IMG/VR virus record: IMGVR_UViG_3300042549_009085
Span: 1 to 21,018 of that record
Reading direction: 5' to 3' (one strand)
Source of the DNA: a virus
Length of the DNA: 21,018 bases
The notes below the pieces were generated by a model. The model was not told the origin of the DNA and searched no databases. It worked only from the letters and a program-made list of their open reading frames with translations. The translations under genes and the position numbers were made by a program. Below, piece after piece: positions 10,850 through 18,192 of the stretch; position 1 is the stretch's first letter, and each line of letters begins with the position of its first letter.

Positions 10850-13800
10850 TTATTCGACCATTTCATACACTTTTCTGAAAACATCGTCCATCATTGCTTG
10901 CGCTTCTTCTCTGAAAAAACACATCTGTGGATTTATACCAAAAACGATATTTGCATCCAGTTCTTTGTTGTAGATAACTCTGCCACATAGTTCTGACCAA
11001 CTGCCCTTAACGTCAGGGTAGAAATGTCGAATAGTCGCACCGCCCATTGCAACGATCACAGCAGGGTTAACAAGCTTAATCTCTTCATCAATAAACTTTG
11101 TACACGATAGAAGAACTTCATTGGGGAACGTCTTGATTTCTTTAGGCTTTTGTACTTTAACCAAAGTCGTAAAGTAACCATTAGTCTTCTTTATGTTCGC
11201 CTCTTTCATTGCCCCCAGCATGTAGCGACAACCCTCCCCTTTCAGTGACTTACCCTCTAATGCTTCAGTTGAGTTAGGACTATCAGTGATCACCATAAAC
11301 TTCACTTTGTTACCCGCTATTGGTAGACAATGCTTCTCATCTTTCATCAAGCACGCCTCACAAGCACGAATACCTCGTATCAATGCACTCGCTTGAGGGG
11401 CAATATCACTGAGCTTGGTATAGCGATCGGCTTTCACATATTCACAGACCAATCCAGGCAATAGCTCAATCTGATCTTTGAGTCGATCAGGGTGTCTTAC
11501 GGGTAGAGTGCCTGCTTCAATGTTAGCAAAGCTACCGACCAGATCCAGAATGTTCATATGCTTACTGGTGCAGTTTCTACGTCTAACATTGGCTAATAGG
11601 TTTGCTCTACTTTTAAATTTTCCACCGACTGTTGCTCTAGCCTCTAAGATAGCTAACGCTGTCTTCTCTGACAAACCTTTAAGCTTGTTGAAAGGAGCAA
11701 CTAGATGAATCTCATCAGGCTCATGTCTGAACTCAAAGCGATTGGTTGAGATATTGATATCAGGTGGTACAACATAGACATTGTATTTTTGGGCATCAAA
11801 TAATGCAGCCTGAAGCTGATCTTCTTTATCAACGGTCGTCAGCATGGCTGCAAAGTATTCGGCTGAGTAATGCGTCTTTAAATACATCGACCAATAAGAG
11901 ATAACTGAATAAACGACCGAATGCGATCTATTGAAACCATAGCCAGCAAACTTATCAATCTTGTCAAATAGCTCCCCTGCTTTAGCTTCATTCATATCAG
12001 AATATTTAACACAGCCACTGACGAACTTATCACGCTGTTTCTCCATCTCATCACGTTGCTTTTTGCCCATGATCTTACGAAGCTTGTCAGCATCAGCCAT
12101 TGTATAACCTGCCAAATCTCTTGCGATCTGCATGACGGACTCTTGGTAGATAAAAACACCCCCAGTTGCTTGCAGTGCATGTTTCATCTTAGGGTGATCA
12201 TACTCAGGGTCTTCAATGCCTTGCTTAACTTTGATGTAAGTATCCATCATGCCAGATTCCATTGGACCCGGACGATAGAGTGCAGTAGTTGCACAAATAT
12301 CCTCAAAGTTTAACATGCCACCTTTTGCAAGCTCTTTCAGCAAATGTCGCATACCGCCTGAGTTGAACTGAAAGATACCTATCGTTTTACCCAGTGAGAA
12401 ACCCTTCATCGTTTCATAATCATCAATGGGCAAACTGAGTAAATCAAGATCAATGGAGTGATTCTCTTTGATATAGTCCAATGCAATTCTGAGGGTATCA
12501 AGCGTTGATAGCCCCAAGATATCCATCTTTACCAAGCCCCAGCTTTCAACTGAGTTTCTATCCCAATTAACTAACGCTGTGCCTGATCGTGTTTCAACGA
12601 CCGCTCGATTGCTGATAGGTTCATCAGCGACAACAATACCAGCGGCATGTTTTCCTAACGAACGCATGACACCTTCAAGTCGAGTTGCGTGATGCCAGAT
12701 ATCAGGATAATTCACTTTAAATGATTCAATGGCGGGTACTGCAATAGCGGCTTCTGTCAGCGTGAACGATGCACCATTTTCTTTAGGTACATAGCGTGTT
12801 GCTGATAAATCCTCATTTGACAAGCCGTACACTCTGCCACAATCTCTCAATGCAGATGCGGAGGCTAATGTGCCATAGTTACTGATACCTGCAACACGAT
12901 CTGCACCGTATTTCTCAACTAGATAATCGATGATCTCGCCTCGTCTCGTAGACATAAAATCTAAATCGACATCAGGAAGATCAAGACGATCAGGGTTAAT
13001 GAATCGCTCAAACAGAAGATTAAAGCGGATAGGGTCAACATCGGTAATGCCCATCAGAAAAGACACTAGACTCCCTGCGGCTGAGCCTCGACCTGGACCG
13101 ACCATAATCGTTTTCTGCTTTGACCACTTTACTACGTCTTGTACTACCAAGAAGTAACGCTCGAAGCGCATCTTTCTTAATACCGATAGTTCGTAAGCTA
13201 AGCGTTCTTTGTAGAGCGGAATTAACTCATCAGGCGGCATATAACCCATGATAGGTTTTTTAATACGCTCCTTCCAACCCAGTGTAACCTGTCTAACAAT
13301 CTCAGACTGCTCATCTTCTGCCATTTTAGGCAGTGATACAGACATGGGCTTCCATTCGTATTGACAGCCATTAATCAACTCATCGATGCCGTTATATTCT
13401 ACTTCAAACTCCTGCATTTCTTGAGTCAACTGCTCAGGGCTTTTTGCGTAGAAGGATTTGTCATGCTGTTTGGGTCGCCATGAATCGCGTATGCGATTGT
13501 TGGAGATGATAACTGTCAATACATCTAACGTATCGGCATCGCTTTCAACATCATAGAGTAATGTATTAGTTAATAGCGTAAATGCCATCGAAGATTCTGC
13601 GATTTCAGACACTTTTTTGTTTAACGTAGTGCTGAATATAGAATTGTTATTAAATAGCTCTACAAAGCAATTTTGACGCTTGGTTTCGCTAAGTAATCTA
13701 TCAATCAATAACTCATAATTGTAGTCATCATCATGTAAGGCAAAAATGTTCTGTTGATCACCTGTTGAGATAATCAAATTGTCATTTTTCAAGATCACTA

Positions 13801-14200
13801 ATAGATCCTCAAAAGAGAGGCGGGCTTCGTAATAGAAGCGTTCTGGGCTACTGGCTAATGATAATAACTTCATTAGCTCAACCATACCTTGTTCATTCTT
13901 AACGTAGACTTTGGGGTACCATTCGGGTATGCGTTTAGGCAACTCGTTAGACGTTCTGGCAGGCTTTCTATAATCCAAATCTTTGACAATGCGAAGTCTG
14001 CATCCAATGATAGGTTTGATAGAGGCTTTTTTGCATTCACTAATGAACTCAGTCATGCCTGATATCGTCATGGTATCAACGAGAGCGACTGTATTAAAGC
14101 CGTCACGCTGTGCTATTTGTACAATCTTCTTTGGACTCAACATGCTTTCACCAATTGAAAAGTGACTGCGTGCGGAGTATAAATAAAGGGGCTTTATCAT
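10850..14200 (-). CDS. dnaE: DNA polymerase III alpha subunit with C-terminal uracil-DNA-glycosylase-like domain
   Basis: This 1116-residue protein is the likely phage replicase. The N-terminal PHP domain (about 1-70) is altered: SARSHFSIGES and LVDTMTISGM lack most metal-binding histidines, so it is probably inactive. The polymerase core carries GPGRGSAAGSL (about 365-375), catalytic D412 and D414 in PDVDLDF, and D560 in VKMDILGL, plus a helix-hairpin-helix block NKLKGLSEKTALAIL. After about residue 930 comes a domain like family 4 uracil-DNA glycosylases: C947-x2-C950, VITDSPNST, an IVAMGGATI strand and INPQMCFF (N1090). The usual motifs are changed (see findings). I chose ATG 14200, with an AGGA site 9 bases upstream and a protein beginning at the PHP strand, over 14248. 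No beta-clamp gene is in the window. Confidence 0.93.
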   Translation of the reverse strand: MIKPLYLYSARSHFSIGESMLSPKKIVQIAQRDGFNTVALVDTMTISGMTEFISECKKASIKPIIGCRLRIVKDLDYRKPARTSNELPKRIPEWYPKVYVKNEQGMVELMKLLSLASSPERFYYEARLSFEDLLVILKNDNLIISTGDQQNIFALHDDDYNYELLIDRLLSETKRQNCFVELFNNNSIFSTTLNKKVSEIAESSMAFTLLTNTLLYDVESDADTLDVLTVIISNNRIRDSWRPKQHDKSFYAKSPEQLTQEMQEFEVEYNGIDELINGCQYEWKPMSVSLPKMAEDEQSEIVRQVTLGWKERIKKPIMGYMPPDELIPLYKERLAYELSVLRKMRFERYFLVVQDVVKWSKQKTIMVGPGRGSAAGSLVSFLMGITDVDPIRFNLLFERFINPDRLDLPDVDLDFMSTRRGEIIDYLVEKYGADRVAGISNYGTLASASALRDCGRVYGLSNEDLSATRYVPKENGASFTLTEAAIAVPAIESFKVNYPDIWHHATRLEGVMRSLGKHAAGIVVADEPISNRAVVETRSGTALVNWDRNSVESWGLVKMDILGLSTLDTLRIALDYIKENHSIDLDLLSLPIDDYETMKGFSLGKTIGIFQFNSGGMRHLLKELAKGGMLNFEDICATTALYRPGPMESGMMDTYIKVKQGIEDPEYDHPKMKHALQATGGVFIYQESVMQIARDLAGYTMADADKLRKIMGKKQRDEMEKQRDKFVSGCVKYSDMNEAKAGELFDKIDKFAGYGFNRSHSVVYSVISYWSMYLKTHYSAEYFAAMLTTVDKEDQLQAALFDAQKYNVYVVPPDINISTNRFEFRHEPDEIHLVAPFNKLKGLSEKTALAILEARATVGGKFKSRANLLANVRRRNCTSKHMNILDLVGSFANIEAGTLPVRHPDRLKDQIELLPGLVCEYVKADRYTKLSDIAPQASALIRGIRACEACLMKDEKHCLPIAGNKVKFMVITDSPNSTEALEGKSLKGEGCRYMLGAMKEANIKKTNGYFTTLVKVQKPKEIKTFPNEVLLSCTKFIDEEIKLVNPAVIVAMGGATIRHFYPDVKGSWSELCGRVIYNKELDANIVFGINPQMCFFREEAQAMMDDVFRKVYEMVE

Positions 14201-14268
14201 TTGGTTGTGTCCTTTAATTTTATATAAGTAATTTTTGGTGCTAGTCATACCGCTTTATCGTTCTGTCA
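14201..14268 (-). promoter_or_regulatory. Leader of the polymerase gene with weak promoter-like boxes
   Basis: The minus strand has ATGACT, 16 bp, then TATATA (or 18 bp to TATAAA), and AAAGGAC before the ATG. A degenerate GTAAGT-family resemblance (CACCAAAAATTACTTA) is also present, like the nrdA leader. This is suggestive only. Confidence 0.3.
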
Positions 14269-14835
14269 TTAACCACCTCTTAGTTTTAAATCAATTGTTA
14301 ATACGCCCATCATCAAGAAACCATGAACGACAACATTCGCTTGTGCCAATGCTGTCTTATCACTCTGTCCTAGACTGATAAAGGCGCTTCTTAATTTTGC
14401 CCTACTTAAACTGCCTCTCATAATGAGACGACAGGTGACATCGAGAATAACAGGGGTGCTGTTTGCGAAGGGGTTAACTCCCGCCTTTAACAGCGTTCTC
14501 AAGTAACCACCAGTGATACCTTTTCTAAACAATGAAGCGACCAACTTTCTTGACTTAATAGGAAACGCTTCATTCTCTACAATGGACTTTTGATAGTCTG
14601 TTAGGGTTTCTCGCTTGCCAGATTGAGGGATGACGTTCGTTACTTTCCCCGCCATAACATCACGCTGATAATTCCTGCGTTCAAGTTTGGAGGTGTCAGT
14701 TTCAAGTCTTGCTTTAATCTTCTCGGTGTTTTCTTTGACTAACTCAAAGCAAGCAATGGCGAGACTGCACTTTTGGCAAATCTCGCTTTCGGCTTTGTTA
14801 CAAATCACCGATCCATAGCAACCAATTGTTGTCAT
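14269..14835 (-). CDS. Unrecognised 188-aa protein with N-terminal Cys cluster
   Basis: The first 30 residues hold C6, C12, C20, C23 and C29 (GCYGSVICNKAESEICQKC and then AIAC), the sort of cluster that binds an iron-sulfur cluster or zinc. The rest is helical, basic and Leu/Lys-rich, with no recognised catalytic motif; a helix-turn-helix-like stretch (FRKGITGGYLRTLLKAG, then LRSAFISLG) hints at nucleic-acid binding. It begins 9 bases after the CobS-like stop with a poor ribosome site, so translation is probably coupled to it, and it precedes the polymerase gene. No family was recognised, and I do not assign a function. Confidence 0.7.
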   Translation of the reverse strand: MTTIGCYGSVICNKAESEICQKCSLAIACFELVKENTEKIKARLETDTSKLERRNYQRDVMAGKVTNVIPQSGKRETLTDYQKSIVENEAFPIKSRKLVASLFRKGITGGYLRTLLKAGVNPFANSTPVILDVTCRLIMRGSLSRAKLRSAFISLGQSDKTALAQANVVVHGFLMMGVLTIDLKLRGG

Positions 14836-14844
14836 AATTACTGC

Positions 14845-16065
14845 TTAGTAAGCCGATTCATAACTGTCTGTGGATGCTTCTATCTCGTCTAACAAGGTAG
14901 CGCCATCTGCAAATACACGTTGAGCAATGCCTGTAGCAACTTCTCGATCAACTAAACCCATTCTGTTGATGAACGCTAACTCAACACCTCGCTTCCAACT
15001 ACCCTTTCTCAAGCCTAACTTGGCTGCAAATATCAATTCACGAGGACCGATGGTTGATGACATTTGCGATGAGGCAAAAGCATCTCGAATCTTGGTTGCA
15101 AATTCAACTAACAGTCGAGCATCATCCATTTCAATGTCGCCCTGTGCGGCTATCACAGCAGACTCTTGACGTTTAGGCATGTAACGAACATGATCAGTAA
15201 TACCAAAACGTGAGTAGTTGGCTGCATTACCCATGTTTGTTCCTGAATACAGCCCTGTTTCATCGCCTGAACCGTTAGTATTGCCTGTTGCGACAAATCT
15301 AAAGTTCTTATGCGGTTTGATTGTTCGCCATTCTGGTGGAGCTTCTTTAATCACCAGTGACTTACCTTCTAAAACAGGCTGATATACAGCAAGTATTGAG
15401 GCGTGAGCAAAGTCATACTCATCAGCATTGTAGACAAAGCCATATTTCATCGCTAAGGTCAGCGGACCAGGCTCGAAGTAAGTACCTGTTGAGTTCGCTA
15501 ATATTTGCCCGATGATATGAGACTCTTCAGTATTAGCGGTGTGCTGAACTCGCATATAGAGACGATTGGTACGCGCACAGACTTGTTCAAACATCGTAGA
15601 CTTGCCTGTACCCGCATGACCCCACAATAGAGTCGGAATATTCTCCTCAAGCCCCATCAAGACATTCTTTAACAGGTCGATCTGAAAGATATAGTTACTA
15701 TCAACATCAGGAATCAAGTCTTGATAATCACCTGTTCGACGAAACACATCGATCATGATTTCATTACCTGATGATGATAAGGCTGCTTTCGACTTGCGTA
15801 AGCCAAATGCTTTTGACATTGCTGTTTTCTCAGGGGCTAAATACCCTGCGATGCTTGACACTGAGGCAGTTGCTCCCGCCATGTGCGTTTTTACTAACTC
15901 CTCTTTTCTTTTCGCTATCTGCTCTTTGCCCCATTGCGATAATGTTTCCGCATGAGGGTAAGCATTCTGATAACGCTCTAATGTAAAATTAGGGTGCGAA
16001 TCTCGAAGATGGAGCTGAATACTGTGGGCTTGTTCGCCACATAATTCACAGGTTATTTTAGTCAT
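14845..16065 (-). CDS. cobS: CobS/MoxR-like AAA+ ATPase with N-terminal zinc finger
   Basis: This 406-residue AAA+ ATPase belongs to the CobS/MoxR group. The N-terminus carries a C2H2 zinc-finger-like motif, C6-x2-C9-x9-H19-x4-H24, in place of the plain CobS N-terminal region. Walker A is GHAGTGKST (149-157), Walker B is YNADEYD (D215, E216), sensor 1 is ATGNTN (259-264) and an Arg in SRFG (286) may be the finger. The CobT-like VWA gene lies just upstream in transcription order. Such pairs load metals or remodel proteins in bacteria; in phages the target is not known. AAGGA lies 7 bases before the ATG. The name reflects homology only; a cobalt-chelatase role is not implied, as no cobalamin genes are here. 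Confidence 0.88.
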   Translation of the reverse strand: MTKITCELCGEQAHSIQLHLRDSHPNFTLERYQNAYPHAETLSQWGKEQIAKRKEELVKTHMAGATASVSSIAGYLAPEKTAMSKAFGLRKSKAALSSSGNEIMIDVFRRTGDYQDLIPDVDSNYIFQIDLLKNVLMGLEENIPTLLWGHAGTGKSTMFEQVCARTNRLYMRVQHTANTEESHIIGQILANSTGTYFEPGPLTLAMKYGFVYNADEYDFAHASILAVYQPVLEGKSLVIKEAPPEWRTIKPHKNFRFVATGNTNGSGDETGLYSGTNMGNAANYSRFGITDHVRYMPKRQESAVIAAQGDIEMDDARLLVEFATKIRDAFASSQMSSTIGPRELIFAAKLGLRKGSWKRGVELAFINRMGLVDREVATGIAQRVFADGATLLDEIEASTDSYESAY

Positions 16066-16152
16066 TTGTTATCCTTTGCTTGCGCTTTGCTGTTTGAATT
16101 AAAGAGACTTATTGTATCAATTACATGTCGGTTAGTAAGTGGTGACTTACTA
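16066..16152 (-). promoter_or_regulatory. Operator dyad between cobT-like and cobS-like genes
   Basis: A dyad GTAAGTGGTGACTTAC (perfect arms, GGTG spacer) occupies 16135-16150, just past the cobT stop. On the minus strand a TACAAT box lies 17 bp after CTTACT, which could make a weak promoter overlapped by the operator. The leader also shares CAAACAGCAA with the cobT leader. Confidence 0.55.
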
Positions 16153-18192
16153 TTAAACAAGCAATGACCGCAACTCTTTAATGATCAGCGATGGCAATTC
16201 ACTGACGTTACTAATAACAAGGTTATTCTTATAAAAGTCCCTCACACTAACATCATCAATACCAATGCCGATGATGTTAATACCCATCTTCTCAATCTTA
16301 GCGATTGAGGTCTTTAAATCTTTATGAATCTCATGATGATTGCCATAAGCACAGGGGCAACCGTCTGACAGGACAATCATTTGCTTGGTACTCTCTTTAG
16401 TCATCCTCATCAAACGCTTTGCAGCCAACAACAAGCTCTCACCATCTACGTTATTTCGTAAAGGTAAACCGCTAGTATTGTTTATTCGACTACCCACTGC
16501 CATGCGTTGCTTTTGCAGGACACTGAAGCGTTCATCAAAGCCTTTGAAAATAGGTAGATGTAACGCCTCTCGTCTTGAGTAATGGTGCAGTGAACGTGTC
16601 TCACCTGATCGCGCATGTTCCTCATACATCACATCATCAGCTAGAGTGGTAAAGCCTATCACTTCATTGCTAATATCTAATCGGGTCAACACCTCGCACA
16701 AAGCGTAAGCACTTTCCATTGCTATGCGTATCTTCTGACCCGACATTGAACCTGAACAGTCAACAACTAATGACACTGCCACATCATTACTAACACCTAT
16801 CTCTCGCTGTCTAAAGACACGATCATCACCTGTCTTGAGACGATACAACGATCCGGCATTAATACGACCACTGCGTTTCCCTGGCAGGTTTCTGACCAGT
16901 GATTTAGACTTAATGATGCGCTCTAGGGTTTTCTGAAGAGGACCGGTGATTTCTCTAGCACTAGACTCTAACTTAACCACAATCGACTTAACTTTATCAC
17001 TATCCGCTCTGCTAATATCCAAGCGTTCAATTTTATCGTACTCGGTGCTATAGACTGAATACTCAGAGGTAGATAGATTGTCTTCAACTTCCTTAGCAAT
17101 CGCATCAGAGAGTGTTTTGGATATATCAGAAGTAGATGATTCAATGGCTGATTCAAGATCGAGTGTCATGCCAGTGTCAGACTTATCAAGCTCTTCATCC
17201 ATGCTACCTTCACCCTCAATCTCATCATCCGCATCAGTGGAGTCATCACTCTCTTCCTCAGATTCACCTGACTCACTGGGGTTAGCTTCATCGGACTCAC
17301 CTGATTCGGCATCATCAGATGCATCATTTGGCTCATCAGAGTCATCGTCCTCAGAATCATCAGGCTCTTTATCTGCTTCGTCAGGCTCATTTTCAGATGC
17401 GTCTAACTCGGAAATGTCTTCAGGAGCATCATGCGCTTCGGCGTCTGGATTAAGATCACCTTCTGCTTTCTCGAAAGACTCAGGAGGGTCAACATGATCA
17501 CCCTGCTCTTCTTCACTTTCCTCTTTTTGTTTACCTTTTTCTTTATTATCAGTCTTTGGTGACTTATCTTTCTTCAGTAGTTTACCAATTTCATGCGCTA
17601 AGTCAATGGCATCTTGTGTTGTCCTAACTAACGCAATTTTAGGGATAGCATCTGCTATCTGTTCCTGTAACTGAGTAATGTGTATCCATTTGTCTTTCAT
17701 ATAGTCTTGAAAGATATCTTGTCCTGACCAAGCTCTGACTGCGGGTGTAAATAAAGTCGTCAACATCTCCTTCTCATCGACTGCTTTAACGAACTCTGGT
17801 TGAATATACTTTTCAATAAAGAAAGTTGATACGCCATCTAAATTCGTTCTTGACCCTGCAAACTTAGCTCGCATACATTTCTCAATCCGACAATCTTCAA
17901 TAGCATTGTAAATTTGAAAAATGGCTTGATTGATAAAATGCTCTTTTTTAGAGATAGTGAAATCTGTAAAGAGGACATGTGCAACTTCATGATCTAAGAA
18001 ACCGTTGATAGCGAGTATCAAATCATCGGATGCATTATCAGGTATGTAGGGAATATTAATGCGCTTAGGGACGCCATCAGTTGACTCGACATAAGCATTT
18101 GTACCTGATTGTGTAACTTTAATACCTTTGCCAGAAAGCACTTTAGCAATGATAGTAATAGACTGTCGGATAACATCGACATTGTGTGACAT
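16153..18192 (-). CDS. cobT: CobT-like protein with VWA domain and long acidic linker
   Basis: This 679-residue protein is the VWA partner of the CobS-like ATPase. Residues 68-72 are HEVAH (LDHEVAHVLFTDF), an HExxH motif typical of zinc metallopeptidases, in a position where CobT relatives often have a similar His-rich stretch. Residues about 225-345 form a very acidic Asp/Glu/Ser linker, presumably disordered. The C-terminal domain has a VWA MIDAS: DCSGS (D478, S480, S482), a conserved Thr region (GFTTLADD) and an LSDGCP loop. VWA domains hold a metal ion through which they bind partner proteins. The ATG at 18192 has an AAGGGG site 7 bases upstream. Whether the HExxH is an active peptidase cannot be told from sequence. 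The gene is followed by the cobS operator. Confidence 0.88.
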   Translation of the reverse strand: MSHNVDVIRQSITIIAKVLSGKGIKVTQSGTNAYVESTDGVPKRINIPYIPDNASDDLILAINGFLDHEVAHVLFTDFTISKKEHFINQAIFQIYNAIEDCRIEKCMRAKFAGSRTNLDGVSTFFIEKYIQPEFVKAVDEKEMLTTLFTPAVRAWSGQDIFQDYMKDKWIHITQLQEQIADAIPKIALVRTTQDAIDLAHEIGKLLKKDKSPKTDNKEKGKQKEESEEEQGDHVDPPESFEKAEGDLNPDAEAHDAPEDISELDASENEPDEADKEPDDSEDDDSDEPNDASDDAESGESDEANPSESGESEEESDDSTDADDEIEGEGSMDEELDKSDTGMTLDLESAIESSTSDISKTLSDAIAKEVEDNLSTSEYSVYSTEYDKIERLDISRADSDKVKSIVVKLESSAREITGPLQKTLERIIKSKSLVRNLPGKRSGRINAGSLYRLKTGDDRVFRQREIGVSNDVAVSLVVDCSGSMSGQKIRIAMESAYALCEVLTRLDISNEVIGFTTLADDVMYEEHARSGETRSLHHYSRREALHLPIFKGFDERFSVLQKQRMAVGSRINNTSGLPLRNNVDGESLLLAAKRLMRMTKESTKQMIVLSDGCPCAYGNHHEIHKDLKTSIAKIEKMGINIIGIGIDDVSVRDFYKNNLVISNVSELPSLIIKELRSLLV

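Follow-up and report, generated by a model that had tools for sequence, protein, structure and literature searches.

A family 4 uracil-DNA glycosylase-derived domain with a probably non-excising site at the C-terminus of a phage DnaE-type DNA polymerase

An unusual DnaE variant from strains of Yersinia pestis and Salmonella, in which an archaeal-type uracil-DNA glycosylase (UDG) domain stands in for the OB and C-terminal domains, was described by Timinskas et al. (PMC3919608); according to the excerpts of that paper used here, it is an extra polymerase of some Y. pestis and Salmonella enterica strains, and these excerpts contain no discussion of its catalytic or cluster residues. The polymerase encoded by the window, by which we mean the whole 21,018-nucleotide stretch of viral DNA analyzed (IMG/VR record IMGVR_UViG_3300042549_009085), has the same PHP-Pol3-(HhH)2 layout as the variant in those excerpts, followed by a PF03167 domain where the OB and C-terminal domains would be, and thus belongs to it. 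The DnaE-UDG fusion architecture has already been described and hence is not new. No discussion of the active-site state in DnaE fusions was found in the open-access literature, and the uracil site that, judging from its residues, is dead across the DnaE-UDG clade is a new detail. A further parallel, to phage SPO1, had been drawn in a preliminary sequence-only reading of this DNA and holds: SPO1 has a family-A polymerase with an N-terminal UDG-like domain.

The polymerase gene lies on the minus strand at 10850-14248 (stop codon at 10850-10852) and encodes a DnaE-type DNA polymerase III alpha subunit with a family 4 UDG (UDG4)-like domain, 1132 aa in length, for which Met17 is an alternative possible start; all features located by residue below are on the same strand. 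The elements expected of a C-family polymerase were all present: a PHP domain (residues 27-198, 13655-14170; Pfam PF02811, E = 8e-19), the DNA_pol3_alpha core recognized by Pfam (residues 320-579, 12512-13291), a finger domain (residues 582-748, 12005-12505; PF17657, E = 1.7e-53) and a Pfam helix-hairpin-helix match, HHH_6 (residues 824-910, 11519-11779). Both catalytic Asp motifs, PDVDLDF (residues 425-431, 12956-12976) and KMDILGL (residues 574-580, 12509-12529), are intact, and the polymerase should therefore be active. It is the replicative C-family enzyme of a phage that is related to the group of Rhizobium phage RHEph10, Pseudomonas phage nickie and the SSU5 phage-plasmids. An AlphaFold model of the full-length protein (pLDDT 87.9, pTM 0.80) matched solved DnaE-type polymerases, including E. 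coli Pol III alpha, and separately matched UDG4.

The match to the NCBIfam DnaE model ends at residue 911, which corresponds to profile position 885 of 1146; the typical C-terminal OB and tau-binding domains of DnaE were not found, and a UDG fold stands there instead. An ordinary DnaE tail was thereby ruled out as the identity of this region, and the domain is not one common to ordinary DnaE proteins. The sequence-only reading had placed a UDG4-like domain on the polymerase from about residue 930. The domain was borne out by Pfam, profile and model matches; its start was not, the domain proper spanning residues 955-1132 or thereabouts (10853-11386).

Evidence for the UDG fold came from several kinds of search. 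Pfam PF03167 matched residues 981-1092 above its gathering score (E = 2.9e-5 with the full protein and 1.7e-6 with the tail alone), and the same family was matched in all nine aligned relatives, at best with 8e-14. A profile built from the ten domains, searched against solved structures, recovered Sulfolobus UDG4 (4zbx, E = 1e-19), Thermotoga UDG4 (1vk2/1l9g, 2-3e-16) and Thermus UDG4 (1ui0, 3e-15), with UdgX weaker at about 1e-11, and a 65-sequence profile of the domain gave the same picture. The AlphaFold model of residues 913-1132 (pLDDT 89.9, pTM 0.86) found UDG4 as its best matches in the PDB (TM 0.69-0.86), together with UdgX, while family-5 UDG, TDG and MUG were weaker. With an HMM score above the gathering threshold and an alpha/beta UDG fold, the domain is a member of the PF03167 superfamily. 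Against the type-4 UDG models of NCBIfam the tail gave E-values of 9e-14 and 9.5e-12, and its 49 and 56 bits lie below the curated cut-offs for UDG4 (125 bits for TIGR00758 and 250 bits for NF040953). The agreement of Pfam, profile and model matches puts the similarity to UDG far beyond chance, which was ruled out as an explanation by the profile and fold searches. The tail is descended from a family 4 uracil-DNA glycosylase and stands in place of the DnaE OB and tau-binding domains. Among 1334 phage records matching the polymerase, only 33 covered at least 80% of the query, which likewise counts against an ordinary DnaE tail.

The sequence-only reading had listed a CxxC, a Cys within LLSCTKF and a C-terminal NPQ as marks of the family, and all three are present (C963-x2-C966, C1049 and, within GINPQ at residues 1104-1108, NPQ); it had also seen correctly that motif A reads ITDSPN for GEAPG and motif B NPQ for HP(S/A). 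In UdgX and family 4 enzymes uracil is contacted by two residues, the Asn N91 and the motif-B His H178 in UdgX numbering, and the motif-A Glu is also in the site (PMC10359453). HMMER alignments equated the motif-A Glu, the Asn and the motif-B His with E41, N80 and H155 of the Thermus enzyme. We take E41, F54, N80 and H155 to have their customary roles, F54 stacking on uracil; H155 has its customary number, and the other three are counted from the alignments. The equivalents of these four residues were E, F, N and H in 25 of 25 cellular UDG4s, all drawn from Pseudomonadota. In the window domain, by comparison, motif A is ITDSPN in place of GE(A/G)PG (residues 987-992, 11273-11290), the segment YFTTLVK (residues 1025-1031, 11156-11176) has T1028 at the uracil-reading Asn position, and motif B is GINPQ (10925-10939) with N1106 at the catalytic His position. 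The residues expected of a UDG4 enzyme, namely the catalytic Glu of GE(A/G)PG, the uracil Asn of TN[VAI] and the motif-B His of HPA, are thus all lacking.

These replacements extend across the clade. A first sample of 71 distinct fused domains had been fetched with patterns that covered two of the altered motifs; because the search thereby included the altered motifs, a second sample, partly overlapping with the first, was fetched with the polymerase-core patterns FERFINP and GL(V/I)KxDxLG only (83 loci, 75 distinct sequences). The motif-A Glu position, D989 in the window protein, was Asp in all domains of both samples (71/71 and 75/75). At the uracil-reading Asn position T, S, A or G was found and Asn never (0/71 and 0/75), and at the motif-B His position the 71 domains had N (64), S (6) or G (1), with His in 0/71 and 0/75. 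The F54 equivalent was mostly L or M among the 71, and the intercalation-loop Arg, present in 24 of the 25 cellular UDG4s, has given way to F, H or Y in almost every fused domain. Since the core-only patterns repeated the result, selection bias of the first search was ruled out. From these residues, the fused domain probably does not excise uracil, and their clade-wide loss suggests that it probably serves some other purpose within the replication machinery.

An active glycosylase acting on another substrate would use D989 and the motif-B Asn; in E. coli MUG this motif reads NPS, and in MUG-type enzymes generally motif B begins with an Asn. D989 and N1106 are indeed conserved in the pocket and could still be usable for chemistry. 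Nevertheless, the closest relatives by both sequence and fold are UDG4s, with MUG and TDG far weaker, the motif-B His, the uracil Asn and the intercalation-loop Arg are all gone, and base removal by a replicase would damage its own template. We consider this explanation highly improbable, and nothing was found in support of the changed-specificity enzyme that the sequence-only reading had suggested.

A comparable substitution was seen at the cluster site, where the UDG4 set of four [4Fe-4S] Cys is reduced to three in the window domain. The first two ligands are retained in C963-E-A-C966 (11351-11362) and the last in C1049 of LLSCTKF (11102-11104), while the third position (KCRP in UDG4) is occupied by V1032 (11153-11155) and was Cys in 0/71 and 0/75 fused domains. 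The proposed replacement ligand is H973 (11330-11332), which was His in 55/71 and 47/75 domains and was present whenever C963, C966 and C1049 were, giving the site pattern C-x2-C-x6-H...C. All four residues were complete in 53/71 and 47/75 domains, and the rest lacked essentially all of them, with few single-residue exceptions. On a polymerase-core tree each of the four ligand positions changed three times, always jointly, a number too small for significance. This co-conservation is most simply explained by a Cys3His metal site, which is probable. A clade-conserved His answers to the missing Cys and makes a rebuilt Cys3His site likelier than an incomplete cluster; the earlier observation of a missing Cys was right, and a site simply one ligand short is the less likely of the two readings.

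Loss of every canonical catalytic residue, together with loss of the metal site about three times, would also be expected if the glycosylase had decayed after fusion and were carried along as a structural tail. Against such a vestige, T1027, E1056 and D1098 did not vary in either sample and K1081 and G1104 hardly did, whereas these positions are not fixed in this way in cellular UDG4; these clade-specific residues and D989 were kept down to 25-30% sequence identity, and decay would not fix new residues. Furthermore, all 83 loci recovered with the polymerase-core patterns carried the UDG domain, with no loss in the sample. A vestige is accordingly a distinctly unlikely account. The fixation of new residues over such divergence argues that selection acts on the domain, which on this evidence is constrained rather than decaying, and the residues provide a clear list for functional testing.

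The strong fixation of D989, T1027 and N1106 suggests that the pocket is in use, as it would be in a non-cutting reader that binds a flipped base in the template (uracil, a deaminated base or a host or phage modified base) and stalls or signals to the polymerase; archaeal family-B polymerases offer an analogy for uracil-triggered stalling, and the polymerase of SPO1, a hydroxymethyluracil phage, likewise includes a UDG-like domain. On the other hand, the Asn that distinguishes uracil is T, S, A or G in every member and the stacking Phe is mostly gone, dUTPase and/or thymidylate synthase was encoded in 6/18 and 7/18 relatives' records, respectively, and no base-modification enzyme was recognized among the window proteins scanned. 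Those relatives with dUTPase or thymidylate synthase appear to exclude uracil. A phage with uracil-containing DNA was considered and rejected, given these enzymes in many relatives; the window itself, a 21-kb fragment, says little on this point. We regard such a reader as rather unlikely. The sequence-only reading had proposed an inactive reader of uracil or a modified base: the inactive site agrees with our results, and uracil reading is less likely than was implied, as the Asn was absent from 71/71 and 75/75 domains.

The explanation that we favor, with a probability of roughly 0.55, is that a non-excising, repurposed module that binds DNA or a partner replaced the OB and C-terminal domains, with the pocket remodelled and a Cys3His site in most members. 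A UDG4-derived domain would have taken the place of the OB and tau-binding domains, lost uracil excision and been retained as a binding module on the polymerase, where it would most likely contact single-stranded template, as the lost OB fold would have done, and/or a partner in the phage replisome. The former substrate pocket would have been remodelled around D989, T1027 and N1106, and the former [4Fe-4S] site would have become the Cys3His site (C963, C966, H973 and C1049) in most members. Against this reading, the domain carries a net charge of no more than about +2. A more specific proposal, that the glycosylase fold became a fixed replisome part which replaces the OB domain, is held by Cys3His and scans the template through D989, T1027 and N1106 without excision, is one that we put forward tentatively. 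Overall, the residues point to a non-catalytic replisome module as the most likely function, with a modified-base reader possible and an active glycosylase unlikely.

Just upstream of the UDG fold, and outside it, lies the candidate beta-clamp-binding peptide QIELL (residues 926-930, 11459-11473), which resembles a clamp-binding sequence and reads Q-x-x-L-[LM] in most relatives. In the excerpts of PMC3919608, the DnaE1 beta-clamp motif QL(S/D)LF has the same position and consensus as this QxxL(L/M) peptide, and that shared position suggests that the DnaE-UDG polymerase uses the beta clamp. The linker was better predicted in the full-length model (pLDDT 82-85) than in the absence of the polymerase core (66-73), and thus QIELL may pack on the core instead of acting as a free clamp peptide.

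Full-length relatives were found in phages of Rhizobium, Stenotrophomonas, Pseudomonas, Klebsiella, Escherichia and Salmonella, and the domain was also matched in IMG/VR contigs and in 898 plasmid records, mostly from enterobacteria and Acinetobacter, with a few from Cupriavidus, Paracoccus and others. At every viral locus examined the domain was part of the polymerase or, where the polymerase is split, of its C-terminal half, and each of 18 records of about 100-120 kb had it as the sole UDG-superfamily match. The C-family copies formed one group in the domain tree (support 87/93), in agreement and consistent with a single fusion event. Many plasmid records (among them H117-H123, H137, H144, H145, H154 and H168) label the match 'uracil-DNA glycosylase (family protein)'. 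With the active site lost, that label is probably misleading, and the polymerase genes in some of these records may be split or fragmentary.

The DnaE-UDG gene was split at some loci (L016:6241-10597, L024 to L028, L032:2814-7064 and L045:6620-10600) near window residues 748-755, within an insert of about 50 aa that is unsplit in SSU5-type proteins and absent from the window protein. At L016, L032 and L045 the polymerase halves are separated by an ORF that resembles a homing endonuclease of the HNH or a similar type. A DnaE split intein was considered for these genes and set aside, as no intein sequence was recognized by eye and the endonuclease-like ORF was found in some loci instead. The window also encodes a RuvC-like resolvase, SbcCD-like subunits, a UvsX/RecA-like protein, a 5'-3' exonuclease, an SSB-like protein, CobS/CobT-like proteins and a DNA ligase, in a gene order much like that of nickie, RHph_N1_15 and SSU5. 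Beside the polymerase, a 188-aa ORF (14269-14835) matched only phrog_3616, a family of unknown function, and ORFs of comparable length, whose start is cysteine-rich in a similar way, occupy this place at L002 and L003; its product is a possible candidate for a polymerase partner. The CobS/CobT-like pair (14845-18192), an AAA-ATPase and a VWA-type protein kept beside the polymerase across the phage group, is often annotated as cobaltochelatase, without evidence for that role.

Two unrelated polymerase families, A and C, thus include phage replicases with UDG-like domains, and because the C-family domains have been stripped of glycosylase residues yet remain fixed, their sequences point to a replication function for the UDG fold. 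The SPO1-type polymerases (SPO1 gp31, Serratia Opt-155, Pseudomonas Lebethron and others) likewise join a UDG4-like domain to a phage replicase, but theirs is N-terminal on a family-A enzyme, whereas the domain here is C-terminal on a C-family enzyme, which places the window protein outside that type. Several SPO1-type domains retain the four Cys and the HP motif, unlike the C-family domain. A point of resemblance is the motif A common to Opt-155 and Lebethron, GD(A/N)PN. The N-terminal domain of SPO1 gp31 (L096:3956-7615) is itself degenerate, with QENPF and no cluster Cys, and degenerate family-A domains (L096, L099 and L100) include those of Vibrio MAR10 (DPR for HPA) and Pseudomonas UF_RH6 (QSI). 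A common origin of the family-A and C-family domains was neither shown nor rejected (AU p = 0.36), the tree lacking resolution.

UdgX shares the UDG4-like fold (TM about 0.7-0.8), but its KRRIH R-loop with the nucleophilic His, its motif-B His and its GEQPG are absent from the aligned segment of the fused domain, which is thus not a UdgX. Among the cellular Pseudomonadota UDG4 homologues, 7 of 25 (L109, L110, L120, L123, L125, L128 and L131) formed a well-supported group with Phe and Trp for two cluster Cys; they retain GEAPG, the Asn and the motif-B HP, and are apparently UDG4s that lack the canonical [4Fe-4S] ligand set. With the family 4 enzymes of Thermus (1ui0), Thermotoga (1l9g/1vk2) and Sulfolobus (4zbx), the fused domain agrees in fold and motif order and in having C-x2-C and the last cluster Cys, and differs from them in the change of the motif-A Glu to Asp, of the Asn to T/S/A/G and of the motif-B His to Asn, as well as in lacking the third cluster Cys and the intercalation-loop Arg. 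The SSU5-type phage-plasmid polymerases (L005, L010 and L095) are about 35% identical to the window protein over 98% of its length; they are without the CCHC site, which the window protein has.
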